Below are positions 7,111-61,449 of a stretch of 64,000 bases of DNA, piece by piece. Location of the stretch: assembly GCA_026004795.1 (NCBI GenBank), contig BPJV01000008.1:62001-126000 (forward strand). Reading direction: 5' to 3'. Origin of the DNA: Pirellulaceae bacterium. GTDB lineage: Bacteria; Planctomycetota; Planctomycetia; Pirellulales; Pirellulaceae. Made by a program: the position numbers and the translations under genes. The notes under the pieces are model-generated. The model ran no database searches and had not been told where the DNA came from. It saw only the letters and a list, made by a program, of their open reading frames with translations. The first letter of the stretch is position 1; every line of letters begins with the position of its first letter.

Positions 7111-8416
7111 ACCCCATCGTCCAATTGTCCGCCAGGACTGCCGACTTGACCAGGATGGGGATTCCATCGCGGATATAGATCGGGTCGTAATCGGTACTTT
7201 CGTCCACGTCCGGCAATGGTTGAATGCGCACGTTTTCGCCAATGTGGACATTCTTATCAATGATCGCGCCGTCGATGACCGTCCCCGATCCAATTCCCAT
7301 CGGGGGGCGCCCGGCGCGGAGGTGCTGTTCTACCTCCTCGTCGGTATCGAAAAAGTCAGCGCCCATGACGATGCTGTTGCGGATTACGGCGTTTTCACCA
7401 ATGAGACTACGTAGACCAATGATGCTGTTCTCGATCACCGTTCCACTGCCAATGCGACATCCGTCGGCGATAAGACTGTTTTCAATCGAGGCACCTTCCA
7501 CGATGGTCGGGGGCAAGAACCTCGGGCGGGAGTAGATCGGAGCGTGGGGGGCTACGAGGTCGAAAGGAGGGTCCGGCTGGGCGAGTGCCAGGTTGGCTTC
7601 GTAGAAGGCGCGAATCGTTCCGATGTCCTCCCAGTAGTCGTCGAAAAGGTGTACTTGGACATGCCGAGAGCGAATAGCGGCCGGAAAAACCTCTTTTCCG
7701 AAATCCCGATACGGTGTCTTCTCTAGAACCTCAAACAGCAAGTTGCGGTTGAAAATGTACAATCCCATGCTGGCCAGACAATCGCGTCCCTGGCTGGGCA
7801 CTCCTTGCGCATCGATCCACTGGGGATCCATCCGCACCAATTCCAGCTCCTCGTCTGTCTGTGGTTTTTCCAGGAATCCGGTCACCCTGCCTTTTTCGTC
7901 GCATCGCATGATACCCAAAGCCGATGCCGCGGTGCGTTCTACCGGGAGAGCGGCAATCGTAACATCAGCCCCCGACTCAATATGAGTCTTCAGCATGGCA
8001 CGATAGTCCATGCGGTAGAGCTGATCGCCGGAGAGGATCAAGATGTGGTCGATGTTCTTCTGGTCCAAGTGCGGCAAGTTCTTTCGTACGGCATCGGCCG
8101 TTCCCTCATACCAATCGGTTCCCCCCTCCATCGTTTGCTGCGCCGCCAATACATCGACAAACCCACCGGAAAACATGTCGAAGCGGTAGGTCTTTCGCAG
8201 GTGCTGATGCAGAGAATTCGAGAGGAACTGCGTCAGCACGAACATCTTGTTGATGCCGCTGTTGATGCAGTTAGAGATGGGAATGTCGATCAAGCGGTAT
8301 TTTCCGGCCAACGGCACGGCCGGTTTGGACCGGTACTTGGTGAGCGGATACAAACGTGTTCCGCGACCACCACCGAGAATCAAGGCCAATACTCTGCGCG
8401 GGTCAATGCCAATCAT
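7109..8416 (-). CDS. glgC: Glucose-1-phosphate adenylyltransferase (ADP-glucose pyrophosphorylase)
   Basis: This 435-aa enzyme makes ADP-glucose from ATP and glucose-1-phosphate, the committed step of glycogen synthesis. The N-terminal nucleotidyltransferase motif [13 protein letters not shown] is followed by [20 protein letters not shown], then [18 protein letters not shown], and a C-terminal left-handed beta-helix with hexapeptide-like [17 protein letters not shown] and [10 protein letters not shown]. Length is normal for the family. GAGGA nine bases before the ATG at 8416 favours this start over the GTG at 8422. It is the first gene of a two-gene operon with the decarboxylase. The GH57 glucan enzyme at 53608 could act on the same polymer. 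Confidence 0.95.
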
Positions 8417-8791
8417 CCACACGTTTCCTCGAGACTAGCGACAAGGGTCGATGACGAATGCCCTAGTGTAGTGGAAAGATGCCGCTTCGATAACAGGGCT
8501 AGGAGCTGCCCCAGGCAACCAATCTCGATTAGATCAGTTCAGCGCCCACCGAAGGGTGAGCGTCCTTGAAGAGGCCCCGAAAAGGGGGCCATGGGGCCGC
8601 ATTGCCGACTGGTAGCCCTGCCCGCCGAATGTGTTGGCACGGCAGGCGCGCGGTGCAGCACTTTTTTCCGAGCGGTAGCCCGTCGATAAACGGTACAGTT
8701 CGGGTAAGGTGACCATGCAACCTCCTGGCGATCCAATCGGAGCGGCAGCGGCCAGCTTGAGTCGGTGCCGCCCCGGCAAACGCCACCTCAC
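8417..8791. other. Gene-free stretch between giant B and glgC
   Basis: These 375 bases hold no convincing gene. Short minus-strand open frames here lack a recognisable product or ribosome binding site. It contains the candidate glgC promoter and a GC-rich hairpin at 8573-8590 (GGCCCC, loop GAAAAG, GGGGCC) about 200 bases past the giant B stop. The hairpin has no T-tract, so it may or may not terminate transcription. Confidence 0.5.
8490..8518 (-). promoter_or_regulatory. Candidate sigma70-like promoter for glgC
   Basis: On the minus strand TTGCCT (8518-8513) and TGTTAT (8495-8490) are separated by 17 bases, about 75 bases upstream of the glgC start. Each hexamer matches the E. coli consensus at 4 of 6 positions or fewer, so this is a weak prediction. 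Confidence 0.25.
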
Positions 8792-11700
8792 CTATTCAAG
8801 TTCCCCGAAAAAGGCATCCCATCCATCGCGCAAGTCGTCCAGCGGACTCAATCGTTCCGCGATCAACGCCTCCAATGCCGACTCCTCTTCCTCTTGATCG
8901 CCGGCAAGCCAATTCCAGTCGCTTGCGGACGACGATGCTCCCAGCACACCTTCCTCTCCTCCGAAGCGATCGGCCTGGACGACTTCCACGAGCGAATCGT
9001 TCAGCGCTGCCTGAACCTCGCGCAGCACTTCTTCCGCCACCGTCACCAGGATCTGTTCCGGGGTCACCATCGTGACATAGGTTTGGGTGCTCGCTTCAAC
9101 GGGCGATTCCCCCTCTCCCCCGGCCGTCGTAGAGTTGAGGAAATTGATTACCAGCAACGCGTCCAACGGCGTGACGAATTCGTCCCCGTTTACATCGAGA
9201 TACGGCGGAGGAGTAAAGGGGGGATCGATGTTCGGTAGGAAGGTCTCGTTGCCTTTATTCAAATAGTTGATGACCAACAACGCATCGATCGGCGAAACGA
9301 AACCGTCATCGTTGACATCCATGTTACCCGCCGGATTCTGCCACCGACTGTTTTGCACATTCACGGTAACTTGCGCTACGTTCGAGACGGTGCCAAGTTC
9401 ATCACGGACCACGTAGGAGAACCGCACCGTGCCCGAGAAATCGGTGGGAGGAGTGTAACGAATTGTTCCATCGGGTTGCGGTTCAGCCAAACCTCCAGGA
9501 GTGGGATTAACGACGACCTGCACCGTCGCTGGATCGATCGTACCGTCGACGTCACTATCATTGCTCAACACTTGCACGTCGACCGGTTCATTCTTGAAGG
9601 TAAAGGCGATGTCGTTATTAGCCACTGGAGCTGTGTTCATCGCCAACGTCACCGTCGCCTCATTGGACACGTTTCCAGCAGCATCCTTGACCGTGTATCC
9701 CAACGTATCTAAACCGCGGTAACCCGGGTTGGGAGTGTATTCGATCACTCCGGTTTGGTTGACCACCGCCGTGCCATGCAGTGGCAGGGTAGTAATCACT
9801 ATCGTGCGTGGATCGATCGATGAGTCGATGTCGGTGTCGTTATCCAACACCGGCAGCAAACGGGTCTGACCGACACCGATGGAGTAAACGTCATCGCGTG
9901 CGATGGGCGGATCGTCGATGCCGTCGACTTGAATGGTCACGACTGCCGGACTGCTCTCGGCGTCGGACGCATCCCGAGTGACGTACGAGAAGCTATCGAT
10001 GACGTTTTGCCCAGACGTTAGCTGCTGAATCGTAGCCACGCCGGTCGGATCGTAAGTAAAGGAACCATCCTCCTGGATAACCACTACCGCACCCAGCGTC
10101 GAGGTGAATGTTCCCGAAACTGCTCGCAACGCGTCATCCGGCAGGTCCACATCCGTGTCGTTGGCCAGCAGACCAGGCGCAGGGACCGATAGCACGCTAT
10201 TCTCATCGATGGCATAGGCATCTGCCTGCGCAATGGGCGGATCGTTGACCGGTTGAATCACGATGGTGAACGTCTGCTCTGCGGAGGTATTCTGGTGCAG
10301 GCCTCCTGACGGGCCGCGGTCGGTCGCCTTGACTCGCACCACAGAACTTCCATGGGCATTGGTCGCGGTGGTGAAGCGCAATTCACCGGTGGCCGTGACA
10401 TTGGGTTGGACCGAGAAGATGGCCGGATTCTCCACATCCACCGTGAAAAAGATCTCTTGTCCTGCCTCATCCAAAGCCGTCGGTGGACTATTGCGTAATC
10501 CAGCGGCTGCGGCGATGCCGGTGGCCCATGCCGCCGAGTAGGCTCCACTGTCTTCATCGACGATGACGTTGGCACCAGCGGTGAACACGGGTGGATCATT
10601 CACGGGGACAATGGAGATAGTGAAGCTCTGAGGAGCCGAGCGATTCACGTGCGGTGCCGTACCGGGGCCATCATCAACTGCCACCACCGTCACCACCGTC
10701 AATCCATTCGCGTCCGGGGCCGGGGTAAATCGCAGCGTGCCAGTGCCATCGACCGTCGGAGGCACAGCAAAGAGCGAGGGGGCATCGCTGGTTACCTCGA
10801 AACTGACCGTCTGCGTGGCATGCTCATCCAGGGCGGCGGGTGGCCCGGCCAGAATGTTCGTCGCCCACCCGTTGACCACAACTTCGCCGGCATCCTCGAC
10901 CACCGTCTGGTCGGCGCCACGGCTGAACTGGGGGGCATCGTTAACGCCGGCGATCGAGATCGAGATCGTTCCCGATCCGCTCCGTGGAGGAGTTCCGTTG
11001 TCGGTCACCACATACACGAAGCTATCGCTACCGACAAAATTCGCTGGCGGGGTGTAGGTAAAGGATACGATCTCCGTGCCCATGAATACCGGCACGATGG
11101 TCCCCCCTTGCCGACTGGTACGCTCGATCTGCGTGATGCTTAGCGACTGCGATAGCTCGTCCGATGTTGGACCGGGGACGTCGCCAACCAAGACATCGCT
11201 GGCATTGATGGTAACCGGTGCATCTTCGGAAATAACTTGCGTAAAGGCATCCGCGACGGGCGGGTCGTTAACCGGAGTGACATTGATTGTAAATGTTCGC
11301 TCCTCCGAGACGTTCTTATTCGGCGGCGGCGAGTCCAAACCGCTATCTCGCAACCGCACCCGCACACGCAGATCAGCGTTCAGGCTATTTACGTTGGGGG
11401 CTGTTTGGAAGGTCAGCGTCCCATCCGCGGCGATGCTCGGTTGCACCACGAAGACGGCGGGATCCATCGCCACGACCTCGAATTGCACGAACTGATTGTT
11501 CTCGTCGTCGGTACCCACTGGCCCGCGACGCACGTTGGTTGCGAACCCACCGACGTTCTGCAATCCCGCATCCTCATTGACGGTCACGGAGTTGGGAACG
11601 TCGAACACCGGGGCGTCGTTTATCGGTGTGAGGGTAATGGTGAACGTGCGCAGATCGGTCGTGTTGGAATTGGGTGGAGGCGATGAAGCTCCGTCATCCA

Positions 11701-14700: not shown

Positions 14701-17700
14701 GATTGTCGATCGCGTAGTAGACGAAACTGTCCGTCCCGAAGAAATCAAAATCGGGTGTGTACACGAACGAACCATCGGATTGTAAATCCAAAGTGCCATG
14801 TTCCGGTGCCTTCACCGGTTGAATGCCGGCAGTAAATGGATCCTCGTCCCGGACGCTGATCGACGCACTATCGCTGTCGGTATCGTTGGCCAGCACGCCT
14901 GGCGCGCTAACCGTCAGTACGGAATCTTCCAGAACGGAGTAAGCGTCATCGACGGCAACCGGCGGCAACCCAGCGACGATCTCAATCAGGTGATCCTCGA
15001 CTTCACCGCCGATGCCGATACCGGTCAGGTCGAGATTGCCATTGGTGCTCAAGCGGAAACGACTGGTTGTAAAGCCGATGGCAGCACTAGCAGGAGTCGA
15101 AACCATGATCGTCGTCTCACCTGCCTGAATCGGCATGTTGGCGACGATCCGTTCCCCAGAATCATTAAAGTCACCATCGGCGTTCCAATCGAACCAGGCA
15201 TCCAGTATCCCGGGAGCAGTCGCTGTTACGGTTACCGGAACCGCTGGAGAGGCAGCATTGAATATCCCACCGAACCGCACTCCATCCTCGTCATCCCCTT
15301 GGATGGTCAACGTCCTGCCGTCGGTCAACGCGGGGCCCAGCGACAGCAGCCCCCCGGTCACACGTGCATTGATCGCATCGGCGAATGCCTGAACAATCTC
15401 CTCCGCCGTGGCCGTACCCAAATCGGATACAGTCACTGGAACATTCGCCACCCCAACTGCTGCGTCGACTGTTGGGTCGCTCAGCTCGAACACGACGACC
15501 TGGCCTTGACCGTCACGCAACGTCAACGTTTGACCGTCGGCGTAGGAGAATGCCGTCTCTGTGGGGAATACCAGGTCGAAAGTGCCGATGGGGAGCCGCA
15601 CCACGCCCGGTGCCGCGGACAGATCGATATAGTGATCGCGCGTTCCGCCGAGATTGACGGTAGCACCAGCAGCGAAGGCGGAAAGATCCGTGATGTCACC
15701 TGCCAACACGGCCGCATTGATGCTTGCTGCCAGCGCCGAGGCAACGTCAGCTGCTGAGATCGCCGCAGACAGGTCCACTGGGATCACCGCACCGCTGGAT
15801 ACCGACGCGTCGGTATCGAACTCAAAGATTACCGTCTTGAGAATCGCATCCGTGATCGTAATCTGCTGACCATCCAACACTCCAGGTGCAGGGACTTGCA
15901 ACGACGCCGGCCCGCGAGTGCCGATGGTGATATTGCTGATTGTCGATCCCAACCACGCGCTTTCATTGTCGTCGCCCCTGGCCGCTGGGCTGTGCACACC
16001 ATCGGGATCCCCGTCGGCGAACGCACCGAGGAACAATTGGGGAGCGTCGATGGGAAGCAAGGTGTGGCGAGCACCATTTTGGGACTGCATGGTCAACGAA
16101 CCTGTCCCCGGAGCGTCGCCGTAATCGACCTGGACTTCCGGCATCAGAATCGTGAACTGAGTCAAGGAAGTGGGGCGATTGGCCAACAATGTGTTCCCAG
16201 CAATGTCCTGAATGGCAGGGATCGCAGTAGCGGTGAACAGCGCCGGAGTTCCGGCATCGATGCTGGTCGCACCGTTGACCATCACCGCTAAATCGCCGAG
16301 CAAATAGGCTGGTTGGCCCCCGAACGCGGCGTTGATGCTGGCCATCATGGCCGCGGCCATCTGGTAGCGACTGTACGTCTGACTGAAGGGAACAGCCACC
16401 GTTCCCGCGGACGCACTTTGATCGCTATCGAACTCGAACGTGTGCGTCGTCCCACCGATGGTGACCGAGAACTGATCACCGTCGGCGACACTTACTCCAT
16501 CCGGAGCGATGATGCGCATCGCCTGTTGATTGTTCAGCGTGATCTCGTATACCGAATCGGGCCGCCAAAGTCCCGACAGTGGTGTCAGGCGGATGTTGCG
16601 ACTGTTGGCATTGTAACCGAAGACGTAATCGATGCCGGGTTGCAACAAGCGACCATTCTCCGTCAACGTCACCGAGTCGGCGGTGACCGTGGCCGCATTC
16701 GGTCCCGTTCCCCCTCCGCTCTCCTCCAATAACAATGAGAAGAACGCGAGGTTGCCCGATTCCAGCCGAATGTTCGTGACCGTCCGATCTCGATCCACGT
16801 TCTCCGCATCGTTATCGATCGGTTGCAACAAGACTGCCACTGGACCGAAGAAGTCTGCTCGATCGTACGCCCCGCGATCCTTGAAAACGTTGGCGCCGAG
16901 GCCAGGCGGTGTATTGACCGTCGGATCGTCCACACGCCGCTGACCGACGATATCTAGATCGGGGGCCAACGCCGGACTGGGGGGCAGCGCCAGCGACGAC
17001 TTAACCTGCGTCAGGGAGGCGTGTTCAGCCAGGGCTTCTAGCGAACTATCGATCGCCGGCGATCCGTCGACCAGGTAGAAAATCGACGCACTGGCGTTGA
17101 CGAACGGATCGCTCGCCGAAGTCAGGCGGAACGACTCGGGGGCACCGCCTGGTGTGACGTTCGTATTGTTGGCGTGGTAGAAATTAGCCCCTAGAGCGAA
17201 GGTGCTCTGCGCACCTCCCACATCGATGCCGACCGAGTTATTGGCCAAAATGTTGTTGATGATGTTTGGCGAGGCTCCCTGCTCGACACGTATTCCGGTA
17301 CCACTGCCACCACCGTAGATCGTATTGTTGACCACTCTGGCAATGGTGCTGGGCCGCATCACGTCCTGACCATGAGCCGGGCTGGGATTGACGGCATCCC
17401 CACTGATTAGAATGCCACCGGTCGAATTCTCATCCAGCACGTTATTGATCAGCACGACTCCCGGCGCCAATTGATTGGCATTGTTCGTCGGATAGTAGAC
17501 CGGGGAACCTGGGGAGGGAGCACCAGCACCACTGCGCGGCGCCGCGTCGACCACGATCCCCCAACTGCCGCTATTGCGAACAGCCGTAGAGCTGATCACG
17601 ACCATGCCCTGATCACGCAAGCGATTCTCGTCTCCATGGTCCTCGCCGAACGGCGTGAAATCATTTCCCCACACCACCGCGGACAGGCCCGGCACACTGT

Positions 17701-20700
17701 TCAATTGCGTTGACCCTAAGCGGTTGAACGCGGCAGGACCATGCAGCTCGACCGTCGAGCCATTACTCCACACGCTTGCAGAAACACTCAGATTCAATTG
17801 CACCACGTTGGAATTGATCGCATCACGGATCTTGGCGGCCACCTCGCTGGCGCGATCCGAGGCGAAAATGCTGATTGGAACGGTTCCTGGCTGAGTTCCT
17901 TGAGCGGGATCGTTCGGTCCGTTGATCACGTCGAATTCAAACGTGACCTCCCGCATTCCATCACTCAAAGTAAACGTGGCTGCGTCTGGGATGGCCGCAG
18001 CATTGTCGACCGAAATCCCGATACTACGCGTCAAGCGATCATTGGAATCGAAAGTTCGGGCTAGCAGCAATTCATCATCATTGACGGTGAATCCGTAATC
18101 GGCAGCCGTGCGGATCTCCAGTTGGTAGCGACCTACTTCGATCTCATCGATGCCCCAACCACTCGGTTCGTACTGCAGGTTATTGGTGAAGAAGCCAGCG
18201 TTATTGACAAGATTCGGAGTGGTGATCGGCGGGTTGTTGACAACCGCTTCGCCGCGTTCGGCCAAGCCGATGAGGATGTCATCGATGAACAGCCCTTCAA
18301 AGGCATTGTCTTGGCCGCGCTCATCGGCATTGTTCAACGCCGTGTTGCGAACATCGGCGCCAAACTGATCTCCTGGCAACCGATTGGCCACGACGAGTGG
18401 CCCGGCATTGGTCACCTGGTACTTCAACAGCCGAACCGTCTCGCCATAAACGGGCCAAACATCGAGATTGGTTTGCTGACCGGCTGCATTGAACGTGGCC
18501 GCCAAGGCCTGGCGAACTGCGTCGCGCACCGCCGCGGCTGAATCGGCATGAGTAATTGGCACGCGCACGTTCCCCGCCGCGACTCCGGGAATGCCTTGAA
18601 TCGTCGCCGGGGGAAGTCCCGTCTGGGAATACGGCAATCCACTGGGGGCATCGACGTTGATGATGTTCCGTCGTTGCGGATTGACCACACTAGTAAAGGG
18701 CAACTTCAATCGTACGCGGTTGGCAATCTGCTCCGGCGAGTCGGTGGGCGAGTAGAAGATGTTCGTACCAACATTCGAGCTTTGCGAGAACGTGTACGTT
18801 ACCCCAGCTACGGTCAGCGAATCTCCCTCATCGATGCTCGCACCTCCGGGCAGATTCAACACCAAACCCAAGTCGAACTCGAACGTTGCATTTTGCGCAA
18901 GTGGTTGATCAACGCTCGCAACACTAAACGTCGCGCCATCATCGAGCTTCCAGCCCGGAACTACTTTAAGTTCGACGCCTCCGCGGAGCGGATCGGCCGA
19001 GCGGAAGGTGCCTCCCGTCGAGAACTCGAATCGCAGCTTGACATTCTCCTGTCCGGCGAAGGCTGCCAGCGAAGCGCGCACCTGCCGCCACGAATCGGGG
19101 GCGCCGTTATCACCGACGTCAAACGCCTCTTGGACCATCAAGGGGCGGCCATTGGCATCGACATTACCGCTGATGTTGACGTCGAATTCATCCTGTCCGT
19201 TGGTGAAATTGCCGTTGATCGCCGAGTTGTTCGTGCTGAGCAGAACCCACTGCCCGTCTTCTCCGGCGGCGTAGACACGGAACGCGTCGAGCATGCGTTG
19301 GTTGTCGGTCAGATCGCTGTTTTGTCCCTGCGTCTCCAAGTAGTAATTGAAGTACAGCATGGGAACATCGTCGATCGAGTAATCGCTCAGATCGATCGGC
19401 AGACTCTCGATCGCCCCATGAGCGCCACCAGGCAGGTTGTAAGAATTGTCGTACACGGCATGAATCGGATCCCAGTCGCCAAGTTGCCGGAATGCAGTGT
19501 TATCATTGTTCGCATTCTCGAAACCGAAATACAGACTGTTTTCACCGTTTTGGTTCTGTGGCCGCGCATTGTTATGGGTGGCGGGACGACCGTGTCCAGA
19601 GTCGCCTCCGCGGGTATCGGTCAAGTGCCACAGGTTGACATCGAGCGGCGAGAAATCCACTCCCTGAATTCCTGAACCCAGCGCCGCCACGTTCGATTTC
19701 ACCTTGTAATTGGCGCCAGGGAAAACAGGTTGCAAATTCCCCGCCGTATCAAACGCATAGATCGTTCCGTCAGTGGTAGTCCCGAATAGGATCTGTGAGA
19801 ATCTCCCCCCCTCCAAGTTCTTCGGTCCGATCGTCAGCCCGGTAAACGCGACGGGAAGTGTTGTTTCGGGATCCACAATGGTGGCAATGGGGAATTGGAA
19901 ACGACTGCCGAGGGGCTGCGTTCCATCACCTACATTCATTTCGAAAAGCTCCCCATCGTCGCTCACCGCGTAGAGACGCGTTGGCGTCGCCGCCAACCCC
20001 GTGACGGTGGCCAAGGGGTCCGCGGTGATCAATTCGAAAAACTCGACATCCTGCGTTCCCGCACCCTGCGTACGGAAGTTACCTTGTCGATCCTGGACGC
20101 CTGCCGGGTTGATCACCGAGCCGTCCGTAGGATTCAACCGGTAAACGTAGTTGGTTCCCCAAACAGGTCGGTTGGAAATCAATTGACGGCCAACGGGGTT
20201 GTTGTTGGCATCAAGAAACGCCTCGTGGAAGATCCGATTTTCCCCGCGATGGGCAACGCCGAACAGGCGCAGATTGCCCGAGTCGACTTCCGCGGCATTG
20301 GAATAAAAAGTCAAACCCTCGAATTGCATGCCGTCGCCGACTTGAGCATTATTCTTGGTGCGCTGACGCACTTGGAAATTGCCGTTGTTGTCAATTTCCG
20401 TAGTAAACGTTTGCAATCCGGAATTGCCCGCCGAACTGGTGCCCACATTGCCGGCATGATCGATCAACAAGAAGTTGCCGTTGTTCGCATCGGTGTCGAA
20501 GCCTTGAGTATTGATTTCATACCCCACCAGGCGGCCGTCCGGTGACATGGCCAGGTCATGCACGCGAGCAAAATCGCTACCCACTTCCGCTTCGATGGCA
20601 CCGGTGAAGGCATTGGCCAGCAGCAGACGCGAACCATTGCCTTGATTACGAACGACATACGTCGACACGTCGGCCAGCGTGAACGGCACCGCGTTGGTCG

Positions 20701-27784: not shown

Positions 27785-27797
27785 GCGAAATTACCTT

Positions 27798-27829
27798 CCA
27801 AAATCAAATAAAATGAAGACGTATCTTCA
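27798..27829 (-). terminator. Terminator-like hairpin between the two giant genes
   Basis: On the minus strand TGAAGA-TACG-TCTTCA (27829-27814) is followed at once by TTTTATTTGATTTT. It lies 74 bases after the giant A stop and 29 bases before the giant B ATG. The stem is only 6 bp and A/T-rich, so termination is probably partial at best. It could lower giant B transcription relative to giant A. Confidence 0.4.
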
Positions 27830-27902
27830 GGAAGTCCCAATAGTCCGTTGCCTGATGATCGCGCGCGACGTCAAACACATTGCGCTTCGATCATCCACAT
27901 GA

Positions 27903-33900: not shown

Positions 33901-36900
33901 GATGTGAAGGACAAAGACGTGGTCGACAACCGGTCGTGTCCAATTCCTAGATTGCTCATCGACACGATTACCGTCCGAGTGCTACCGATCGTTCCTCGGG
34001 CAAACAGTCGACCATCAACGCGCCGGGGGAACAACTCAATCCCTTGATTGATCTGCCAGAAGGGGCCACTGAGCAAGCGCTCCACCTCCCGCTCGCTGAG
34101 ATGGTTGAAACCGAGTCCGCTAACTAGATTCGTATCCCACGTGGCGAATTCTCCGAGGAACGTGGCAATGTCACCTACGATGGTGTTGAAGGGAGCATCG
34201 ATTACCCCGGCCAGACCCCCCAAGGGAACGGCATGCACCGGCGGCAGTGGATTGGCCGTACCCTTGTCGCCATTGGGCAGATTCTGAGTGTTGGGGATAG
34301 CCGGTTGTCCGCCTGCACCACCCTCATTGATCGCTTTGGCGATGGCTCGCGCCACGTCCGGAGCTCTCCAATCCGCATCGATATTGATCGGTATGTTGTT
34401 GGGGTTGGATGGGCCGCCCCCTCCCAAGACGAACTCGAAGGTTCTCCCAGCGCTTCCCGTCGTGCCGATATCAGGGACACCGTAGACCGTGAAGGTGTCC
34501 CCACTCTGGTAAGCACTGGCATCCTGAGCCGTGATGACGAATTCCTGCAAATGACGTGCGGAGATGGTAATCGTGTAACTGCCCGTCGTCGCACCGGCAA
34601 CGCGATTGGCGAAGGATAACGGATTGTAGTCGGTGTTTCCAGCAGAACTAATTGCTGCGTAATAAACGCCTGGTTTCAATGCCGTGAAGTCGGCATACGG
34701 ATCGAGGCTGACTGCCTCGCCCGGTGCCGGATCGTTATCGCTGATCGTTCGCACCGCCCCGCTGGCATTGCGGAATTCTTGAATCCGGCCTTGCGCATCG
34801 AAAATGCGCAGCACCGAATCGAGTCCGCTGCCGTTGGTGTCGACATCGATGATCACGCGCTCACCAAGCCCCAGTTTGAACTGGAAGAAGTCGACATCGG
34901 CCGCCGCACCGGCGATCGCGGTTGTGGTAACGGAATCACCGATCACCCCGGTCGCCGTGTATTCGAGCGGATTGTGACTGGTTCCCTGCCATGTTTGAAT
35001 GGCATCGGCGATCGTGTCGTTCGGCTCCTGAGTGGCCGCCTCGCCATTGAAACTGGCCCGCCCATCCTTACCAATGATGGTGTTGTTAACGATGCGGGCA
35101 TGGGGTTGCGGGGCAGCCCCCAAGTCCAACGGTCGAATGTCGAAGGGATTGCCACCGCCGGCCGCATTGGCGAACACGATGTTGTTTACTCCCTCCAGGT
35201 AAACCGCTGGCCGGTTGTAATACTCAGGATAGATCCCACTGTTGATGTTCGCAGGGGCTCCTGAGACCGGGCCAAGCAGGCTTTGTGCCACCGTGGCGCG
35301 TACATGCTGCGTCGTGCCATTGGTGACAAAAATGCTTCCGAGAATCGCATCCCGCACCGCATGCATCGTTTCCATGGCGCTGGTGGCGAACGCCACCAAT
35401 GGGTTGCCGGTACTACGGGTGTAGAAATCGCCTCCCTCTTCACGGTAGTAGATGGGCACGGCATTGGCGGAGACACCATTGCCTTCAACCTGTCCACTAC
35501 CGAAGGTCGGTGCTCCGGTTCCCGCGCCGGCCATGTCTTCGAATTCGAACCGCAAACGCATGCGGTCGGAATCGATGATCAGGGCGTCCCCGTCATCCAG
35601 AAAAGCACCAAAATGATCCGGGTTCTGAGCGTTATTAACCGTCGCTGAGTTATCAGTTGGCGGGATCTGTAGCGGTGTTATCATCCAAATGGGCGATTCT
35701 CCGTCAATCTTCACGCCCCCTAACCCGCCTTCTTCAAGAAGGTTGTTTTGGACGACAACGCCAGGCACGATACCGCCAGCGACCGCATTGTTCAGAACAG
35801 GCAGGTTGCGCACCGCTTGGACACCGACCAACGGCGGCTTGTCTTGAATCATTGAGCGAGAAAATGGCCCGAACACTCCGTTGTCGGCCTCGGAATCTCG
35901 AGGATCGGCTAGTCGTTCGGCGGGCTGACTCCAAATCCCGTAATCGCGTGATTCGCGAATCGTGTTGTTCTGGATGATCACTTGGCTCTGAGCGCGCTCG
36001 ATATTGCGGTCGCTCCAACCGGTGTGCTCGATGACCTGCAGCGCACCGGCCGGGTTGGCAGCCGCGATCGTGCGTACTCTAGCTCGCCCGAACAGATTCA
36101 CCTTGGCATCGGTGCCTGCTGGACCGGTGGCCACTCCTCCACTGGAGGCTGCCCGCACACTCAATTGCGATTGCACCGCCGAGCTATTGATTACTTCACG
36201 GATCTTGCGAGCGATGACGTAGCTGGGGTCGCTGGGACTGAAGTTGATGGCGATGTTTCCGAGGCTGACGCCCCCCGACGAATTGAATTCGAAGACCAGC
36301 TCCCGCCCTCCGTCGCTGATAGCGAACCGATCACCATCAGTGAGATCCGCACCCGACGGCGCTACGATGGAAGTCTGATCGTCCAAGCGATCATTCGTGT
36401 CCCAAGACTGGGTCAAAATAGGAGCGCCGAAGGTGTTCGATTGGAAAAACGTCTCGGCCAGGCGCACCTCGAACTGGTAAGCACCGGTAGTGGTCATCGA
36501 CGATGGGACCTGGATCGGCGCGTAGGTCGGGTTGGGTTCGGCCGACATGACGCGCGCCCCGTTTTGCAATCGGACGTGGACATCACTGACCTGCACCGAC
36601 GTCGGATTGTCATTCCGAGTCGCAAACTCGACGAAAATGTCTGCCGGATCCGGCGGCCCCGCCGGGAACAGGTCGGCCCAGCGGTTGAGACTGATGACCG
36701 CTTCTTGCGGTGATCCTCCCGTCAACACAACCTCGGTCGGTCCGGCGTTATTGCCATCGGTGGTTGCCACGCGAATGCGTTGAGCGCCGACAACGACAAA
36801 CACATCCAGATTGCCGCTGTTGACCTGATAATCGAAGACCAGGTTCGGGCTGTCCTGCGCCGCGCTATAAGTCCGCAGGTTGAAGGTACGCGTGACCGCA

Positions 36901-39573
36901 GATTGTTGCTGCCCCAGAAACGCACCGCTCAAGAGGATAGGATCGCCCCCGGAACCGATGCGTTCACCCCGCTCGGCAAATCCAATGATGACGCGATCCA
37001 GTGCCGTGCTGGGATTACTTCCACGGAACACCAATCGCAATCCGTCTTGTCCGGCAAAGTTGTAGCTGAACAGTTGATTGGCTAGATCGAGCTTGATCGA
37101 GTTGCTGCCAGCGCTCAAGACAGGAAGACCGGAAACGGCGTTGGTGGTGGCAATCAACGTCTCGTTACCATTGGCATCGCGAACGTAGATCTCGAAAGTC
37201 CCACCGGGATGGTTGTAATCGACATAGGCGGTCGGGAGATCAGCGGCCGTGTAGCTACCCAAACTGAACGGCGCCGATACGATCTCACCGCCGGGGCCCA
37301 GTGTCTGACTGGGGAGAAAATTCTGCACCACCGGGGGAGCCGCGGTGGTCACCCCAGGGACGTACTGCGTATCCACAATCCGGCGAATCGAATTGATCGG
37401 CTCGGTGCGCACAGGATTGAGAAGTTTGGCACGAGGCTGATACGCCGCCGAAGAAACCGCGATCAAATAGGTTCCAGGAGCCAAAGCGATGGGACCGATG
37501 TACGGGTCCTTCGTACCCGCCGAACCGCGCGACAAGTCGTGCTGGTCCGTCCCTGCCAATGGTCGCGCTTGGTCCTCCGCGATGTTACTACCATCACCGG
37601 AGTAGATCAGTCGGTATTGCGACTCGCCGAAAAACGTGGTGGAAGATTCCTCCTGGAAGATGTTGATCGACGTATCAGCTCGATTGAAGCCATCGGCATA
37701 ATCCACGTCGATCACGATCGGCACCATGCCGCCGACCGAGTTGATCACGTCCTCTTGAGAGATGTCCAGTCGGTAGAAGTCGACATCCTGTGTCGAGCTG
37801 ATCGTTCCCGCAACGCTGATTCCTCCGAGAGCCGTTTCCAGGATGTTGCCGATGTATTGAGGCCGCGCACCAGTCTGGCGCTCGAATGGAGTACCGAACA
37901 ACGGACCGACTGGTGAGAGTCCCTGAGCGGAATCGTTGTTGGCATACGTTTGGCCACTTCCCGGGAAAGCATTGCCGGCACTCTCATCCTCAGCGATCTC
38001 GCCCATCAACGGCGACGTACCAGGCAATCCGACGACGCGGATGCCATTCATCGCGTAACGAATATCGGCGTAACTAACCGTCGACCCGGCGAACTCCTGT
38101 TCCTCGCGCAGACGCACTTGAACCATGTAGCTGCCATCGCTCAAGCCACCTGCCGGATCGGTGATGTCACGTCCGGCGCTGCGGACACGGAAGAAGTAGG
38201 TACTGCGGCTACCTGCCGCTCCGGGCAACACCACACGGAATCCAGGATCGCGGGGATTCGTCGTGCCATCTTCCTTGACCGCCCCACTGGCAGTCCGCCT
38301 AACCTGACCGATGCGCTCGGGGAGCGGGTTGACGGCGTTGGCAGAGATCAGATTGGACACGAAAAGGCTGGACGGATTATCCGCCTCCACCGTACTGTTG
38401 ACGCTTCGTGCCAGCAGCCGTCCGTTGGGATCAAGCATTTCCAGCACAAGATCGGACGAAGGATCGGTGGCATCGATATCCAACCACACCATCGTCCCCG
38501 CCACGCCGGTAAAACTGTACACGTCCACGTCACCCGGCGCGCTGAGCGTTCCCTCGACGGTGAAACCAAGTCGTAACGCCTCACTGCTTTCCTTGACATC
38601 ACCGGCCAAGTCTCCCAGGAACTGAGAATTGCTCGTGGTGGCATTCTGTCCTGGCGCCGCGGCATTGGGGCTTTCCAGCTCCAGTGTTATGGCGACATTG
38701 CGATCGTTGGAGAATTGGTCGAGCAAAATGCCTCGCCAATCTCCCGGTTGAGGAATCGAACCGATTCCATCGTTGTTGGTGTCGGTCTGCGGCGTGCCAT
38801 CGGGCTTCAACCCAGCTCCCACCGTATCGTCTTTAAGACTGGTGAGAATCACCGGAAATCCAGGCTGCCCCAAGATGTGGATGGTGCCCCCGACCCGATC
38901 GGGACCCGTCGACAGATCACCGATGGCCGATAGCCCCGCCCCCAGGTAGCGATTGAAGTTCGACCCATACCCAGCGAACTTCACCACCAACGATTCGTTG
39001 GGAGCGCTTTGCAGTCGCAGTCCCCCTTCATGCTCCAGATTGCTGGTAAAGATTTCGTTGGTAACGACGTGCACGATGTCCGTGTCATCCCACACGCTGG
39101 CCGTGGTCAGAATCGCGCCACCGCGGATCTTCAGGCCGTTCAAGCCGTTGTTCTCCAGGCGGTTGTCACGCAATAACGGGCCTCGATTGGTATGGTACTG
39201 ATCATGTCGGTCGGCCGCACCGGTCTGTCGGCCGGGGTCTCCTTGCAGATCATCGACCATGCTGTTGACATCGATTTCGATCGGTGGCGCTACATTGTCG
39301 ACAAACGTGTTGCCGATGATGACCGGCTGGGCGCCGCGGACGAAGATGGTAGCCGGTGCATTGCTCAATCTACCGAACCGCGTCCCCGGTCCTTGGCCGC
39401 CAAAACCATTGTCGTTGTTTTCAAAGATCGAATTGGCGATGCGTGCGTCGGCTTGATGGATTTCAATCGTATTGAAGGCTCGGAAGGTACCCTCGATCCG
39501 AGTCACGCCACCACCATAGGCGAAACGTGCATGGTCGACGCTCAAGGTTGACGTCGGAGCCATGTAGATGCCA
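27903..39573 (-). CDS. Giant A, C-terminal portion (frame after the frameshift)
   Basis: This continues giant A from about residue 1793 of a joined 5682-aa product. It begins at GGIYMAPTSTLSVDHARF, which follows directly on the DW-G of the N-terminal portion and matches giant B's GGLLARHFTSLSVDHAL. The same frame stays open to 39782, but that extension is nonsense by homology. Order: rest of the beta-helix-like region, prepeptidase-C-like repeats, more helix-like segments, FEFD-type modules at about 36020-36350, 35330-35610 and 34320-34520, a six-copy FEFD array (31130-32800), a continuous GEVED domain, about six cadherin-like units, a dockerin-like pair and an acidic tail ending LLGDDEWND. 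No initiation site is seen at the 5' edge, so it is not expected to be an independent gene. Confidence 0.85.
28205..28415 (-). other. Dockerin-like EF-hand pair of giant A
   Basis: The repeats DVNADGFVSPIDALLVINYL and DVNGDNFITPLDALIVINAL are nearly identical to those of giant B and occupy the same position, just before an acidic C-terminal tail of about 110 residues. Confidence 0.85.
28430..30340 (-). repeat. Cadherin/VCBS-like repeat array of giant A (about 6 units)
   Basis: Units open with PPTAADDRYEINED, NDPPTAGDDNLTVNED, NDPPMANGDSMATLED, NDAPTVASPFGTVVMEED, NDAPRLAATLPDITVNED and NDPPSANADSYSVKQG. Two carry VSNTNP/A-LLVTP-type strands. Such repeats usually form calcium-stiffened rods. 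Confidence 0.8.
31130..32800 (-). repeat. Six-copy array of an unnamed ~95-115 aa module (FEFD-type) in giant A
   Basis: Each unit starts near DG-x2-F-x-I and carries a T/V-x-F-E-F/Y/L core (VTFEFDRNN, ITFEYDTDG, QTFEFTNTG, VRFEFDADN, VTFELEDVD), then a (G/S)NV-x-(I/V) strand, an amphipathic helix with A-(I/V)-x3-G-x-G-L, and a closing strand such as SLAVFGTPG or SLRISGVPG. The first copy is incomplete. Giant B has a single copy at the same site (16250-16495). I cannot name the family. Confidence 0.75.
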
Positions 39574-42500
39574 CCCCCAATCTCGTGGCGCGGGCGTCGT
39601 GGTGGAACCATTGTTGTTGGTATCGAACGTACCGCCAGCGCCGACCGTATCGTCCAGGCGGCTCGTGAATACGACGGGCATCCCGTCGGTACCTTCCGCC
39701 AAGATGGTGGCGCCAAAAGTGGCCTCGATGCGCGCCGCTTCCAACTTGACGACGGTGCCGGGATCGACGACCAAGGAGGCATCGAGCCGGGGGCGCTTGA
39801 CCGCCAACGCTTCCAAGCTCAACCGAGTGCCCAACGAACCACCGTTGTCAACAAACGAGGTGAAGCTGCTGCTGGAGGAATCTGGCCACTCTGCCACCAG
39901 CAAGTAAGGGCCTTGCCCATTGGGGGCGCTGCGGTAGATGCGACGCCCTACGTAACCGGTCAGCGTGGCAGGAAGGTTGTCCAAGCGGATGCCGCTGTTG
40001 GCCGCTACTGTCAAGCTGTTGGTCGGATGAGAAGCCAGGCCCTCGCGACCAGCGGCGTCATACATTACCACGCGGTAGTTGTAGGTGCCGTCCAAAGAGC
40101 CACCAGCCTGCGCGGTCAGAGTCACCCCGCTGACATTCGCACGATCGCGAACGAGAATACCACCCACCGTGCTGCCGTCATCGAAATAGGTGCTGGAGGT
40201 ACGATCAAGAATGGCGACCAATTCGTACGGGCCAGCGCCACCGGGTCGACTGCGATAAAGCCTACGGCGAACGAAGTCACCGGTGGCAGCGGGGAGCCCA
40301 GCCAGGTGAATCGCATTGTGCGTGGCCAGTAGATTCACGTCGATCGTCGCATCCGACGGCAGGCTCTCGTAACCGTTGGCGTCGACGAAGGACATCTTGT
40401 AGTTGTAAACCCCAGGCGGCAACGAGCCGCCTTGATCGATGGCTAGCGAGACAGTACTCAGGCTGGGACTTGTATTGTCCAATAAAGGTCCACCGACGCT
40501 GCCGCTGACCACCAGATTCTCGCTAATTACGTGGACGATATCGATGTCATCGAATCGCCCGGGTACGGTAAGCGTCTCCGTGGTGCCAATAGCAGGTGTG
40601 GTGACGCGAATGAACAGGCCATTGATCGAATTATTGACCAGCCGATTGCGGCGAATCTCCGGGCCCACCCGGTCGTAACCACTGGTGAATTCCCCTCGTG
40701 CCTGGAATTGGGGTTCGTGGAAGTTGGTCTCCCGGAAACTATTCGGCAGCGCGCTCATCGCCGCGTCGGCACTGAATTGCACCAAGTTGTCGGTTATGGT
40801 CGGACGCACCTCCAACATTTGAATCGGATTTACTGTGCGTTGCACCGAATCGATGACAACCTTGCCGCCGCCATACCGGATATCCGCGTGGTTGACGTAC
40901 TGCAGAAAAATGCCTTCGGATTCGATCGACGTGCGTCCGGCGTCAGCATCGATGTCACCGCGGAAGTTGAGGCCTCCCCAATCACCGGGACTGGGGGAAG
41001 TCGACGGCGCATAGGAGTCGAAACCGATCGCTTCATCCATCCATGAGGTGAAGTACACCGACCCGGCTATACGGTCACCACTGGCCGAGCGCAAAGCGCG
41101 TCCGTTGGCATCGAGCAGGAACGGAGTGCCCAGCACCTGCAACGCGGAGCCCGAGCGATCGACATTCAGATTGGTGCTTCCCACGTTGATCGACGCCTGG
41201 CGCAACTTGAAGACTGCTCCCGCGTCGATCATGGTGATGACTCCGTGGGGCACATTCATCGCACTGCCGTCCGCGAGCACCTGTCCGGGCAATAACCCCA
41301 GGCCGATCTCGTAGGCGAAATTGTCGCTCAAGGTACGGATATCACCGTCGGCCCCGCCATTGCCCACGATGCGCACGATGTCCCCGGGATGAGCTGCCGC
41401 GAACACATTGGGGACTCCGCTACCGGCGATATTGTTGAAGGGCCGACTGAGGCTGCCGTCGGCGGCCGGGCCTGCGGACTTGTCCACAAAGAGCGTTCGT
41501 CCCAGCACCTCGATGGAAGTCAAGTCCTCGGACAACGTGATGACCTGTTCACCGGTCAACGTTATCGACGCTCCGTTCTGAACGGCGGAGACGCCGAGGC
41601 TGCCCTGCGCGTTGATCGCCGCAGCTAACTTGCTGGCAATCGTTCCGCCTGGATCGGTGGATGAAATCGGGATCGCAATGCGGCCCGGGGAACTGGGCAC
41701 TCCGGTGGAGGTGAACTCGAACACGCGTTGGGTTCCATTGAAACCACGCACCGTGACCAGTCCACCATCAACCGAACTTCCCGTTCCACCGACGTTGACT
41801 ACGCGATGCAGCGGTCGCGTCTCGAACCAGAAGTTATGGACACCGCCGGGGACGCCATCGCCATCGCCGTCGATGATAACCGCTGGCGTGTCCCCCATTG
41901 CCACATCGCGAATGGCGTCTGAGGTGTCCACCGCAGCACGGAAGGTGACGCGCAATTCGTATTGCCCCTGCGACTTGCCCCCGCTACCGCTATTCTCGAC
42001 CACCCCGTTGTAAGCATCGTTGCCACTAGCGCTCACACCGATGTAATAAACCCCGGACCCGAGCGACTGCCGCAGCATCGAATCGGAACTGAAGTAATCA
42101 TCGTTCTGGGCCACCAACTCCATCCGCCCACCGGTCAACACCACGGGATTCTGATCGATCGAATTCCCGCCCACGGCGGTGGTCGGAGCCCCGGTCGCCA
42201 AGCGAGCCCTTACCAGGCGGCGCGCCGCCGGATGGTCATTGATCGCGTCGACGACTTCACCAACCGTGGTCAACATACTGGGGTTGGAGTTCAAGTCGAT
42301 CCCGATGGCATTGGGAAAAACAAGGATGCCCGGCGCGGAGCTGTCGGAACGATTGGTCTGGGTGAAAAAGATGCGCAACTGGTTGCCCAGCGGTCCTTCG
42401 GCCACGGCTTCGAATTCAACCCGCAGGCTGTTGCCGCCACCGAGCGTGGTGCTGGCCGTCGCCTGCACCTGCCGGAACAACTGCAGATGCGTGTCCAACG

Positions 42501-44952
42501 AGCTGCTGTTCGACAGCCGTTGGGCAAATGTCTCCGCAGTGAACACCCCGACCCGGTCGCTCCCCAAGTCGACTTCGAAGCGGTAAAGATCGATGTCGTT
42601 GCTGTCTGGGCGATACAGATGCTGGCCGTGCAGGATGTCATAATTGCCAGGAAAGATCGGCTCGTACGGTTCGTCGTTGGCATTCAACTGCCCGTCGTTT
42701 TGATCGAGCAGCGGTCCGCTTCCGGAAAGAAATACGGGATCCATCCGCATGAGCGTGGTCTCGGGCAAGTTGCCCGCATGCTCCAAGCCGAGGACCATCC
42801 CGATCGCCGCCGCCATGCGTCGTGAGAAATTCCCCGCGTAATCGTTTTCCCAGTTCGCGCTGGCCGACATCACGATCAGCGAGTTTTCGAAGGTAGGATC
42901 GATGCGCGTGCCGAACTGCAACGCAAATTCGGTAACTACACGCGTACCAGGCACGGGACGCAACCCGCTCAATTGGCCCAGGGCGATGGTGAGTCCCGAA
43001 TCGGCGGTCTCGACGAATTGGACGCCGACGTATTTGGCCCACAATTCCAGCGCTTCCCTGGCTCGCGCCTTCTGCGTCTCCGTAATCGAATTGGTCAACG
43101 GATTGCCATTGACATCGACCGCATACTGCGAGCGGAAGTTGTAATAGATCGTGGTAATGCCCGGTGTGGAATCCGCGCCGAACGCATCGTTGATATGGTC
43201 TTCGAACTGATTCGCATTCTGAGGCAATTGCCGATGACCAGCATCATCATTGGCGCCAGGCAGGTCGAGAACAAAGGGCTGCGGATCGATCGACGACGAC
43301 AGGATGAGGCTCGTCTGGTTCTGGATGCCGGAGCCGACGATCCCCAGGTTCATCGACGTATCGAAAGTGCTGCCCAGGCCAACCAGCGTCAGCGGGGAGT
43401 AGGAAAGCGAACGATTGCCCACGACCGCCGTGCCGTCGCTCCCGGCTTCCAGCGTCGCCTCGACCAGCGTGTTGGAGGCGGAAGAGGTGTTGATCAGATT
43501 GACCAACTCCTGGGCGGTCAGATTATTACGCCCCATGTCGACCGTAATCGTCCGACCACTGGCTGTTACCGTCGGATTGCCACTACCACTGTTGATAAAC
43601 GCTACAGTGATGCCGTTGCCACCCTCGCCAACCTCTTTGGCCGTCAAACGCAATTTGACGGCGCCATCAGTATTCAGGTCCGATATCACGTTGGCCGCAG
43701 CATTGATGCGACGCGGGACAATGGGCACCGACTCGCGCGTACCAATGCGCAAACGGAACGCACCGTCAGCGCGGGTCGAGGAGACCAGTTTGGCAATGTC
43801 ATCGGCAAATTTGAGCGTCGCCGTGTTATCAACGGCATTGTAGGTTACCGATATCGGTAGAAAGCGCACATCGTCCGTGTTGCGCACCGTATCGGACGTA
43901 TAGAACAGTTGATAGAACTCGGGGTGCTCGGCAGATGCGGGAGTAGGGTTGCCGTTGACATCGTTCTCGATATGCAGCTTGTCCCCGTTGAAGTAGACGA
44001 CGATCGTATCCCGCAGTTGTTGCAGTGACCCGTTGGCTTGACGCACCACCGGTTGCGGAACCACGGACACCACTTGAGGGCCCAGGTCAAGACGGAAGTG
44101 GATCGTCTCGGCACGTGAGCCGGACGTACTGGGCTGGAAGAATTCCCCCGCGGTGTTTCTTAATCCGACGATGCCCAAGTTCGGATCATCGAACCCGAAC
44201 ACCTGAATGCGATAGTCGTCGTCGGGAAGCGCCTCGGCAAATCGTACGCGCACCTCGTTCTCGTTCGGCGCGTCCCCGACCAATACGGCTCCGGGAGTGA
44301 TCGTACGGTCACCGGTCGCCGACAGCATGATCGGCGCGAACTGGTTAGCCGGCACCTGGCCCAACCGCGCTGAGGGATTCCCGCCGAGCAGCTTGGCAGA
44401 AACCTTGCCGCTAACTCCAGGTGTGCCATTGATCGCGGCGACAAGCTGCGACGCCGTCGTGGGCGATGCACTGTTGACGTTCAGCGTGATGTCGATGGAG
44501 TTGCCCGACGACGAGATGGCCGGCGCACCTGCCGCCCCTAGATCCGCACGGCTAACGTTGACCGTGTAGCTTTGGCCAGGCTGAACGGCCGTCAACAGGA
44601 TGCTTGCTTTTCCATTGCTGCCAAAATCGCTCTCCGCGGTAGACAAGCCAAAGCTACCGTCCCCGCCCGCAGCCGTGATGCGGATTCCCGCTAAAGTGGC
44701 CGGATCGATCTGCTGGGCATCGTCAAAGCGAAACACCAGCTCTCGGGGGGCAACGGTCTGCACGGATCCATCGGCTAGCAGATCACTCGTATTTGGCTGA
44801 ATGCCAATCAACTGGGGCCCCACCGCCAACAACTGCCGTTGCTCCAGATTCTCGACGAGCAGCTCCCGCATGCGGCGACGCTTGGCTCGTGAGGCATTCG
44901 AGTTGGCGACCGAAAAGCGAGATTTTGCCAATGAAGACTTACGATTGGCCAT
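39463..44952 (-). CDS. Giant A, N-terminal portion (modular surface protein; ends early at a frameshift)
   Basis: The 1829-aa frame starts with a basic leader and LVENLEQRQLLA (32-43), the planctomycete-type sorting box. It lines up with giant B from B residue about 440 on, so giant A lacks B's first metzincin unit. Order: Ig-like domain, a degenerate metzincin domain with AAIGMVLGLEH at 715-725 where an active enzyme has HEXXHXXGXXH, a prepeptidase-C-like domain, DGDGDG calcium-type loop, one FEFD-type module (41500-41775), and the beta-helix-like region. Three copies of a second inserted module lie at about 44300-44520, 43375-43710 and 42130-42465. Real coding stops at about 39578; the last 38 codons are out-of-frame. 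A weak AAGG precedes the ATG. Confidence 0.85.
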   Translation of the reverse strand: MANRKSSLAKSRFSVANSNASRAKRRRMRELLVENLEQRQLLAVGPQLIGIQPNTSDLLADGSVQTVAPRELVFRFDDAQQIDPATLAGIRITAAGGDGSFGLSTAESDFGSNGKASILLTAVQPGQSYTVNVSRADLGAAGAPAISSSGNSIDITLNVNSASPTTASQLVAAINGTPGVSGKVSAKLLGGNPSARLGQVPANQFAPIMLSATGDRTITPGAVLVGDAPNENEVRVRFAEALPDDDYRIQVFGFDDPNLGIVGLRNTAGEFFQPSTSGSRAETIHFRLDLGPQVVSVVPQPVVRQANGSLQQLRDTIVVYFNGDKLHIENDVNGNPTPASAEHPEFYQLFYTSDTVRNTDDVRFLPISVTYNAVDNTATLKFADDIAKLVSSTRADGAFRLRIGTRESVPIVPRRINAAANVISDLNTDGAVKLRLTAKEVGEGGNGITVAFINSGSGNPTVTASGRTITVDMGRNNLTAQELVNLINTSSASNTLVEATLEAGSDGTAVVGNRSLSYSPLTLVGLGSTFDTSMNLGIVGSGIQNQTSLILSSSIDPQPFVLDLPGANDDAGHRQLPQNANQFEDHINDAFGADSTPGITTIYYNFRSQYAVDVNGNPLTNSITETQKARAREALELWAKYVGVQFVETADSGLTIALGQLSGLRPVPGTRVVTEFALQFGTRIDPTFENSLIVMSASANWENDYAGNFSRRMAAAIGMVLGLEHAGNLPETTLMRMDPVFLSGSGPLLDQNDGQLNANDEPYEPIFPGNYDILHGQHLYRPDSNDIDLYRFEVDLGSDRVGVFTAETFAQRLSNSSSLDTHLQLFRQVQATASTTLGGGNSLRVEFEAVAEGPLGNQLRIFFTQTNRSDSSAPGILVFPNAIGIDLNSNPSMLTTVGEVVDAINDHPAARRLVRARLATGAPTTAVGGNSIDQNPVVLTGGRMELVAQNDDYFSSDSMLRQSLGSGVYYIGVSASGNDAYNGVVENSGSGGKSQGQYELRVTFRAAVDTSDAIRDVAMGDTPAVIIDGDGDGVPGGVHNFWFETRPLHRVVNVGGTGSSVDGGLVTVRGFNGTQRVFEFTSTGVPSSPGRIAIPISSTDPGGTIASKLAAAINAQGSLGVSAVQNGASITLTGEQVITLSEDLTSIEVLGRTLFVDKSAGPAADGSLSRPFNNIAGSGVPNVFAAAHPGDIVRIVGNGGADGDIRTLSDNFAYEIGLGLLPGQVLADGSAMNVPHGVITMIDAGAVFKLRQASINVGSTNLNVDRSGSALQVLGTPFLLDANGRALRSASGDRIAGSVYFTSWMDEAIGFDSYAPSTSPSPGDWGGLNFRGDIDADAGRTSIESEGIFLQYVNHADIRYGGGKVVIDSVQRTVNPIQMLEVRPTITDNLVQFSADAAMSALPNSFRETNFHEPQFQARGEFTSGYDRVGPEIRRNRLVNNSINGLFIRVTTPAIGTTETLTVPGRFDDIDIVHVISENLVVSGSVGGPLLDNTSPSLSTVSLAIDQGGSLPPGVYNYKMSFVDANGYESLPSDATIDVNLLATHNAIHLAGLPAATGDFVRRRLYRSRPGGAGPYELVAILDRTSSTYFDDGSTVGGILVRDRANVSGVTLTAQAGGSLDGTYNYRVVMYDAAGREGLASHPTNSLTVAANSGIRLDNLPATLTGYVGRRIYRSAPNGQGPYLLVAEWPDSSSSSFTSFVDNGGSLGTRLSLEALAVKRPRLDASLVVDPGTVVKLEAARIEATFGATILAEGTDGMPVVFTSRLDDTVGAGGTFDTNNNGSTTTPAPRDWGWHLHGSDVNLERRPCTFRLWWWRDSDRGYLPSLQYD
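39574..39578 (-). other. Frameshift site in giant A (one extra G in a run)
   Basis: The minus strand has GGGGG where four G would keep the frame, giving DWGG-IYMAP instead of DWGWHLH. Removing one base makes 44952-27903 exactly 5683 codons with no internal stop. Giant B has the homologous DWGGLLARH without interruption. Confidence 0.9.
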
Positions 44953-61432: not shown

Positions 61433-61449
61433 CGTTCCTCGCCTAAGCT

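Follow-up and report, generated by a model that had tools for sequence, protein, structure and literature searches.

Genomic context and architecture of the giant genes

The window, the whole 64,000-nucleotide stretch of DNA analysed here, belongs to a 5.6 Mb Pirellulaceae genome in 17 contigs, which is referred to as G000 in the comparisons; the relatives that carry names are mostly Pirellulaceae and other planctomycete MAGs. It contains two giant paralogous genes in tandem, arranged head to tail on the minus strand and designated UP (27903-44952; A in the original prediction) and DN (8792-27784; B), and all features of the two genes given below are on this strand. DN is one open reading frame (ORF) of 6330 aa that encodes a matrixin (M10) domain, PPC, a reprolysin-like domain, FEFD modules, GEVED, cadherin-like/Big_9 repeats and a type I dockerin, and its beta-helix matches Pfam below the cut-off. 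UP comprises an N-terminal ORF (P0003, 39463-44952, 1829 aa) with three GN-x-I modules, one FEFD module and a weak Planc_extracel match (planctomycete extracellular N-terminal motif; 16 bits, cut-off 25.5), and a C-terminal ORF (P0002, 27903-39782, 3959 aa) with a beta-helix, PPC, an FEFD array, GEVED, cadherin-like/Big_9 repeats and a type I dockerin. The view of A and B as giant paralogues thus stands as far as their tandem arrangement and co-linearity are concerned, but A consists of two ORFs in different frames, which meet at a run of G (39570-39582). Relatives carry UP as one intact open frame, so this break would stem from an error in sequencing or from a recent lesion.

In both UP and DN, the type I dockerin forms the C-terminus (53.2 and 51.5 bits against a Pfam cut-off of 22.9), and Planc_extracel was not among the Pfam matches of DN at E<=0.5. 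The products are giant modular, dockerin-ended proteins with protease domains and probably a role in adhesion or as a scaffold, with secretion as well as this role being predicted by analogy with giant Stieleria proteins (PMC7717043). Neighbouring genes encode a GlgC-like nucleotidyl transferase (7109-8422), a 1191 aa ORF with no Pfam match (47783-51358), a glycosyl hydrolase family 57 protein (53332-55827) and a pyridine nucleotide oxidoreductase with AIR-synthase-like domains (59153-61471).

Comparison of UP and DN

BLASTP blocks above 45 bits between UP and DN are co-linear as far as the repeat region (UP/DN residues 218-449/505-735, 526-828/714-996, 940-1004/997-1061, 1152-1600/1108-1532, 1593-2527/1417-2334, 2824-3087/3218-3464 and 3821-4074/3551-3787), and the few off-diagonal blocks stem from internal repeats. 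This confirms that the large domains follow each other in the same order, and the alignment anchor proposed at residue 45 of A and residue 440 of B fits as well (UP 27-101/DN 419-497). The differences between the two proteins consist of modules of ~75-110 aa with clean edges; a lack of clean insertion boundaries, which the original prediction had named as a point that would speak against it, does not apply, as exemplified by UP 828 and 940, which flank DN 996|997. At the DNA level, same-strand blastn of the two genes retrieved only three repeats of 48-66 bases with 80-86% identity.

All three GN-x-I modules are located in the N-terminal part of UP. The first (44317-44604, P0003 117-212) corresponds to 8 residues between the flanking blocks in DN (497-505), the blocks flanking the second (43378-43656, P0003 433-525) overlap in DN, and those flanking the third (42127-42429, P0003 842-942) directly abut there. 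No GN-x-I module above 10 bits was identified in DN, in agreement with the earlier count of three modules in A that are absent at the matching sites of B. The modules occupy the same three places in all six same-genus UP proteins with complete N-termini, and among the eight same-genus genes at the DN position only that of G013 contains one, at another site. GN-x-I modules yielded no firm Pfam match; the first two weakly resemble Flagellin_IN and domain II of the phage tail sheath, and a remote link of these modules to phages is possible.

HMM searches identified eight complete FEFD modules, one divergent module and one split module in UP, and four complete modules and one split around a divergent guest in DN, which agrees with the predicted numbers of about ten and five. 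In UP, these are UP1 (41548-41775), UP2 (36087-36344, P0002 1147), the divergent UP3 (35295-35600, P0002 1395), UP4 (34305-34511) and a split host (P0002 2328-2350 and 2887-2933), whose N-half (32733-32801, HMM positions 1-21) and C-half (30984-31124) enclose an array of five guest FEFD modules (32445-32663, 32127-32345, 31845-32063, 31485-31709 and 31197-31430). DN encodes a split host, consisting of an N-half that ends at TFEFD (18872-18949, edges placed by eye) and a C-half (18404-18583) around one FEFD-type guest (18584-18871), followed by DN2 (17738-17992, DN 3265), the intact DN3 (16265-16489, DN 3766), DN4 (15641-15880) and DN5 (15293-15544). Nesting in the window is therefore restricted to one guest level, with five modules in one host in UP and one in one host in DN. 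The earlier reading had overlooked that a single loop of FEFD modules receives further FEFD modules.

UP2 and DN2 share a site, as do the split UP host and DN3, whose flanks match the outer flanks of the two UP halves, and these sites are thus ancestral. Consequently, the proposal that modules occupy sites that differ between the paralogues holds for GN-x-I but not for all FEFD modules, and the alternative that modules are ancestral to both paralogues applies to some of them and not to others. Ten FEFD modules of the window share 26-36% identity with the first of the 11.

Age and distribution of the family

Homologues were detected in 40 of 60 genomes, including the window's own, with a 250 aa core as query. 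UP and a gene at the DN position occur in tandem in ten relatives, eight of the same genus (G002, G005, G006, G009, G010, G011, G012 and G013) and two of other genera (G024 and G025), with one gene cut by a contig end in four of them (G002, G005, G012 and G024); G020 and G027 contain three giants in a row. In a 40-row tree, UP proteins of several genera form one clade (support 99/95), and therefore the UP lineage predates these genera. A third paralogue family, C5, constitutes a clade of its own (100/99), and the grouping of DN is less firm (37/89). The genes at the DN position in G010 and G005 form a separate branch and represent a DN-like but different paralogue. These genes (L029-L032) encode FEFD arrays of seven (G010) or nine (G005) modules, which look nested in another host. 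The window's genome also encodes a third giant of the C5 family (L037, G000:C5:83223-98390), which contains two GN-x-I modules near its N-terminus and nests of its own.

The five-module array of UP is identical in pattern in all nine same-genus UP proteins read, out of 15 same-genus genomes including the window's. It is preceded by the host N-half in all nine and followed by the C-half in eight, the ninth sequence stopping at a contig end. Across the phylum, where up to 19 candidates were scored in each genome, FEFD modules were identified in 21 of 294 sampled genomes, one of the 21 being that of the window. In another family (f43), each genome has one or two FEFD modules, carried by open frames that measure about 500-1850 aa, and these may represent the ancestral, un-nested setting of the domain.

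Gain and loss of domains within the genus

Alignments of nine UP and six DN proteins of the same genus revealed orthologous empty and filled sites between species, the very comparison of flanks in relatives that had been proposed as a check. The guest in the split DN host is present in G000, G006, G009, G011 and G013 as well as in the genes that occupy the DN position in G005 and G010, and absent in G012 (seven of eight filled), where the host FEFD reads straight through without interruption. G012_DN is placed among filled relatives, as sister to G000 and G002 (98/93), and by eye its flanks resemble those of its sister. Of 46 related loci, all 28 that were listed look filled by eye, five of these 28 being copies of genomes already counted, with a possible bias towards filled sites as the query alignment was itself built from these. 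Hence, the guest was most likely lost in G012.

Five of nine same-genus UP proteins (G002, G010, G011, G012 and G013) contain an insert of ~450 aa, consisting of a subtilase (Peptidase_S8; 169.2 bits in Pfam for the G010 copy) with its prodomain, followed by PPC. The loci that carry it are, in numerical order, L023-L024, L025-L026, L029-L030, L039 and L040. It is absent in the other four (G000, G005, G006 and G009), and the empty site of the window lies approximately at 34893-34919, ahead of the PPC domain core. Because G000 and G002 are sisters (100/99) that differ in this insert, the subtilase must have been lost, gained or exchanged more than once. UP of G025 also encodes a subtilase, in other surroundings.

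Among the six aligned DN proteins, that of G013 (L026, residues 4207-5001) is alone in having three inserts, each 105-127 aa long, within the region of cadherin-like repeats. They comprise one GN-x-I and two FEFD modules, the latter pair resembling the array of G005 and G010. No near-identical copy of these inserts was present among the giants fetched, with best outside matches of 48.8, 73.8 and 89.4 bits. Furthermore, the number of cadherin-like repeats varies between same-genus proteins, and G006_UP lacks about 230 alignment columns.

The original prediction of short coding cassettes that move in and out of giant genes was borne out with respect to clean in-frame edges and to empty and filled sites within one genus, but movement as a current process found no support, given the conserved five-module array and the fixed GN-x-I places. 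As UP predates the genera, its sites are stable within the genus, and DNA repeats are few and short, the modules look like old domain insertions and losses rather than active cassettes.

Nesting of FEFD half-domains

Separate HMMs for the two halves of the FEFD module were retrained for sensitivity, since earlier, less sensitive profiles missed N-halves. Across 101 sequences, they matched 595 N-halves (>=4 bits) and 740 C-halves (>=5 bits), compared with 5 and 15 in reversed sequences. For the counts, ten near-copies were removed from the 101 sequences and then further same-genus UP, DN and C5 rows, giving a set of 80 proteins with near-copies removed and a set of 58 with one representative per same-genus group. 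A single loop accounts for most of the breaks in the 80 proteins, with 53 of the 93 N-only matches ending at HMM positions 20-24 and 113 of the 153 C-only matches beginning at positions 19-30.

When orphan halves are read as opening and closing brackets, the 349 halves of the 58 proteins (133 N, 216 C) leave 115 unmatched, compared with 160.7 +/- 10.1 in shuffled orders (none of 5000 as low). The 80 proteins leave 166 unmatched compared with 220.8 +/- 10.6 (none as low), and the direction is the same with all proteins. Many C-halves stay unmatched because N-halves are harder to detect than C-halves. Strict tokens give a nesting depth of at least two in 57 of 91 proteins and at least three in 17, with a maximum of six in L091; very lax thresholds recover the first N-half that the strict tokens miss there, and L091 then reads seven N followed by seven C (depth 7).

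Ten deep nests, hand-picked after the first token run, were re-read at very lax thresholds, and seven of these are balanced. Besides L091, these are L093, L094 and L095, with five N followed by five C-halves (depth 5), and L089, L090 and G030, with seven of each half in balanced order (depths 6, 5 and 6); one further opening past the close in L091 and G030 was counted as the next stretch. The remaining three (L087, L088 and L103) miss a balanced count by one or two halves. Two of the ten nests, L093 and L095, are near-copies of each other, and the outer levels are homologous between nests. By sequence, guests act as hosts in turn in the relatives, over five to seven levels.

Covariation and structure models

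A mean-field coupling model was trained on 362 uninterrupted modules and applied to the split halves of six balanced, non-duplicate nests. Nested (mirrored) pairing scored above both the permutation mean and same-order pairing in all six nests at three settings (combined z 3.09, 3.59 and 3.99), although fewer than 5% of permutations scored as high at all three settings in only two single nests. These six tests are not independent, since the outer levels are homologous and the training set included modules from other parts of the same proteins and from related nests. The combined z had been 2.87, with three of six nests near zero, in an earlier run that still included the innermost pairs, which are trivially adjacent, as well as a near-copy of one nest; both were taken out for the final run. 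In that run, true partners scored above 81% of wrong partners when genomes or loci were held out, with orthologues from other genomes still in the training set.

The full pattern of the UP array was available in nine of 14 rows tried. In four of the nine genes, including that of the window, the host N-half scores best with its own C-half among the six candidates; in two genes, the own C-half comes fourth. Nested pairing lost to shifted pairing in two of the nine and exceeded it in the window's UP. Covariation in the UP array thus points in the right direction but is weak.

An AlphaFold2 model of the DN host with its guest (197 aa, 22 sequences) reached a pLDDT of 96.2 and a pTM of 0.89. It contains host strands at residues 4-7, 19-24 and 32-38, the complete guest, and then a host strand (140-143), a helix (150-165) and two strands (183-186 and 189-193); the guest repeats the strand and helix order of the host with two more strands. 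Judged by its confidence values and its strand and helix order, the model fits one FEFD-type module sitting inside another in DN, and the two host halves may fold as one domain. For the five-level nest of L094 (6 sequences), the model was of moderate confidence (pLDDT 69.2, pTM 0.50) and placed hairpins first and five long helices after them, which is consistent with nesting but not proof of it.

A proposed route to nested giant proteins

Based on these observations, we hypothesize, with a probability of roughly 80%, that UP and DN are old tandem paralogues that diverged by rare in-frame gain and loss of whole domains, and that the loop between beta2 and beta3 of the FEFD domain takes other FEFD domains as guests, resulting in true nesting. 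The domain would consist of a beta hairpin, a loop and a beta-alpha-beta-beta unit, with the guest entering the beta2-beta3 loop immediately behind the FEFD motif; this guest would usually be a further FEFD domain or several of them in tandem. Reuse of the same loop would place N-halves in series, followed by C-halves in mirrored order. A host could stay folded provided that the ends of its guest lie close together, and the conserved strands at guest start (LxLxVPxGG) and end (xGxPGV) may pair with each other. The halves may pack as one domain in every nest, and repeated insertion would then create a side arm off the main chain, running out through the N-halves and back through the C-halves. 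Selection would be expected to maintain the balance of the brackets, as a half without its partner should fail to fold. At the DNA level, the underlying events might be illegitimate recombination or exchange with alleles that lack the guest. We also lean, with less assurance, towards the broader reading that a small extracellular domain serves as its own standard insertion site and so builds recursive proteins with brackets to seven levels, which are likely branched, with nesting that sister species continue to gain and lose.

Exchange is the alternative that deserves most weight, although we rate its chances somewhat below even, and it is compatible with nesting. In this view, the presence and absence patterns would be recombination tracts, produced by gene conversion or by horizontal exchange with guest-free or guest-bearing paralogues or alleles. 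The repeated absence of the subtilase, in G000 next to its sister G002 and again in G005, G009 and G006, is more easily explained by exchange than by repeated exact deletion, and a different DN-like gene occupies the DN position in G010 and G005; the flanks of G012_DN, on the other hand, look like those of its sister. An unlikely arrangement is one in which the chain swaps domains or closes into a ring, so that the first N-half and the last C-half complete neighbouring modules and not each other. The HABAS domains of RNA polymerase, the closest precedent, have been called partly domain-swapped (PMC11515920), and the two UP genes in which shifted pairing wins would fit, but mirrored pairing exceeds same-order pairing in every deep nest modelled, and the UP host N-half of the window prefers its own C-half.

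It is very unlikely that modules were lost differentially from a long tandem array present in the ancestor, which would make the orphan halves decayed modules instead of split hosts. Tandem arrays do exist (five modules in UP, seven in G010 and nine in G005), and G012 demonstrates the loss of a single domain. However, N- and C-halves are ordered and mostly balanced in the deep nests, tend to be broken at a single loop, are conserved throughout the genus and covary as nested pairs, and the DN model of host and guest is of high confidence; the order, balance, breakpoints and covariation of the halves led us to drop this explanation. The view of small in-frame elements actively hopping between giant genes, as originally envisaged, appears the least probable of all: it accounts for the clean-edged empty and filled sites within the genus, but not for the scarcity of same-strand DNA repeats within and between UP and DN, the low identity among FEFD modules, the constancy of the UP array or the G013 inserts, for which the giants retrieved contain no near-identical copy. 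With the DNA repeats wanting and the sites old, active cassette mobility was dropped as the main process.

Relation to known systems

The nesting proposed for FEFD domains has a precedent in the recursive insertion of HABAS domains into HABAS domains in Si3 of the beta' subunit of cyanobacterial RNA polymerase (PMC11515920), and a survey that counted 48,551 domain insertion events likewise reports six-level nesting in this enzyme (PMC13114784). The principle of recursive self-insertion is therefore not new. As in FEFD, a small beta domain is inserted recursively into its own copies there, with six levels reported, but Si3 belongs to an intracellular enzyme and another family, whereas FEFD is a beta-alpha-beta domain with no Pfam match, found in giant proteins that look secreted, with five to seven levels by sequence and guests whose presence varies within a single genus. 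General searches by fold and sequence gave no significant match to a PDB chain, and no Pfam match at the modules, that would identify FEFD as HABAS. What is added to the RNA polymerase case is the family, the setting, a possible seventh level and presence or absence within a genus. Insertion surveys use classified domains, and since no Pfam match or solved relative of FEFD was found, it may well be uncounted in these.

In FEFD proteins, nesting depth spans 0 to 6 or 7 in a natural series that includes orthologous sites with and without guests, and on which it could be tested how domains insert, which loops accept them and how much-interrupted chains fold. Linear annotation of such giant proteins, with halves taken as separate small domains, would be misleading. 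No description of self-nesting in planctomycete proteins was found in the literature searched, most subscription journals being outside its reach.

Giant cadherin-like/tandem-95/matrixin proteins have been listed for Stieleria varia (Pla52n_17480-17500) with a predicted role in adhesion or as hydrolases (PMC7717043). By annotation these resemble UP and DN, as giant genes with consecutive locus tags and similar domains, and the accessible parts of that paper give domain lists without a comparison of paralogues, an FEFD module or nesting. The Planctosome hypothesis of a cohesin/dockerin peptidase complex in freshwater planctomycetes (PMC6461901) likewise concerns planctomycete proteins with dockerin and peptidase domains; as far as the available text describes them, UP and DN are larger and differ in architecture.

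FEFD modules yielded no firm match in Pfam (UP and DN), NCBIfam (UP only), PHROGs, PDB sequences or Foldseek, including no match to a PDB fold (best E 1.6). Single GN-x-I and FEFD modules weakly matched Flagellin_IN (E 0.012; 16.3 bits against a curated cut-off of 22.7) and Phage_sheath_domII (E 0.078; 13.9 bits against 31.4), and one of the 11 FEFD modules matched a PHROG tail sheath family (5.5e-5), although the whole proteins are unrelated to phage tail sheaths and to proteins with Flagellin_IN. In addition, Foldseek searches of BFVD returned fold matches to phage proteins, and the one at E<=0.001 is an uncharacterised phage protein.
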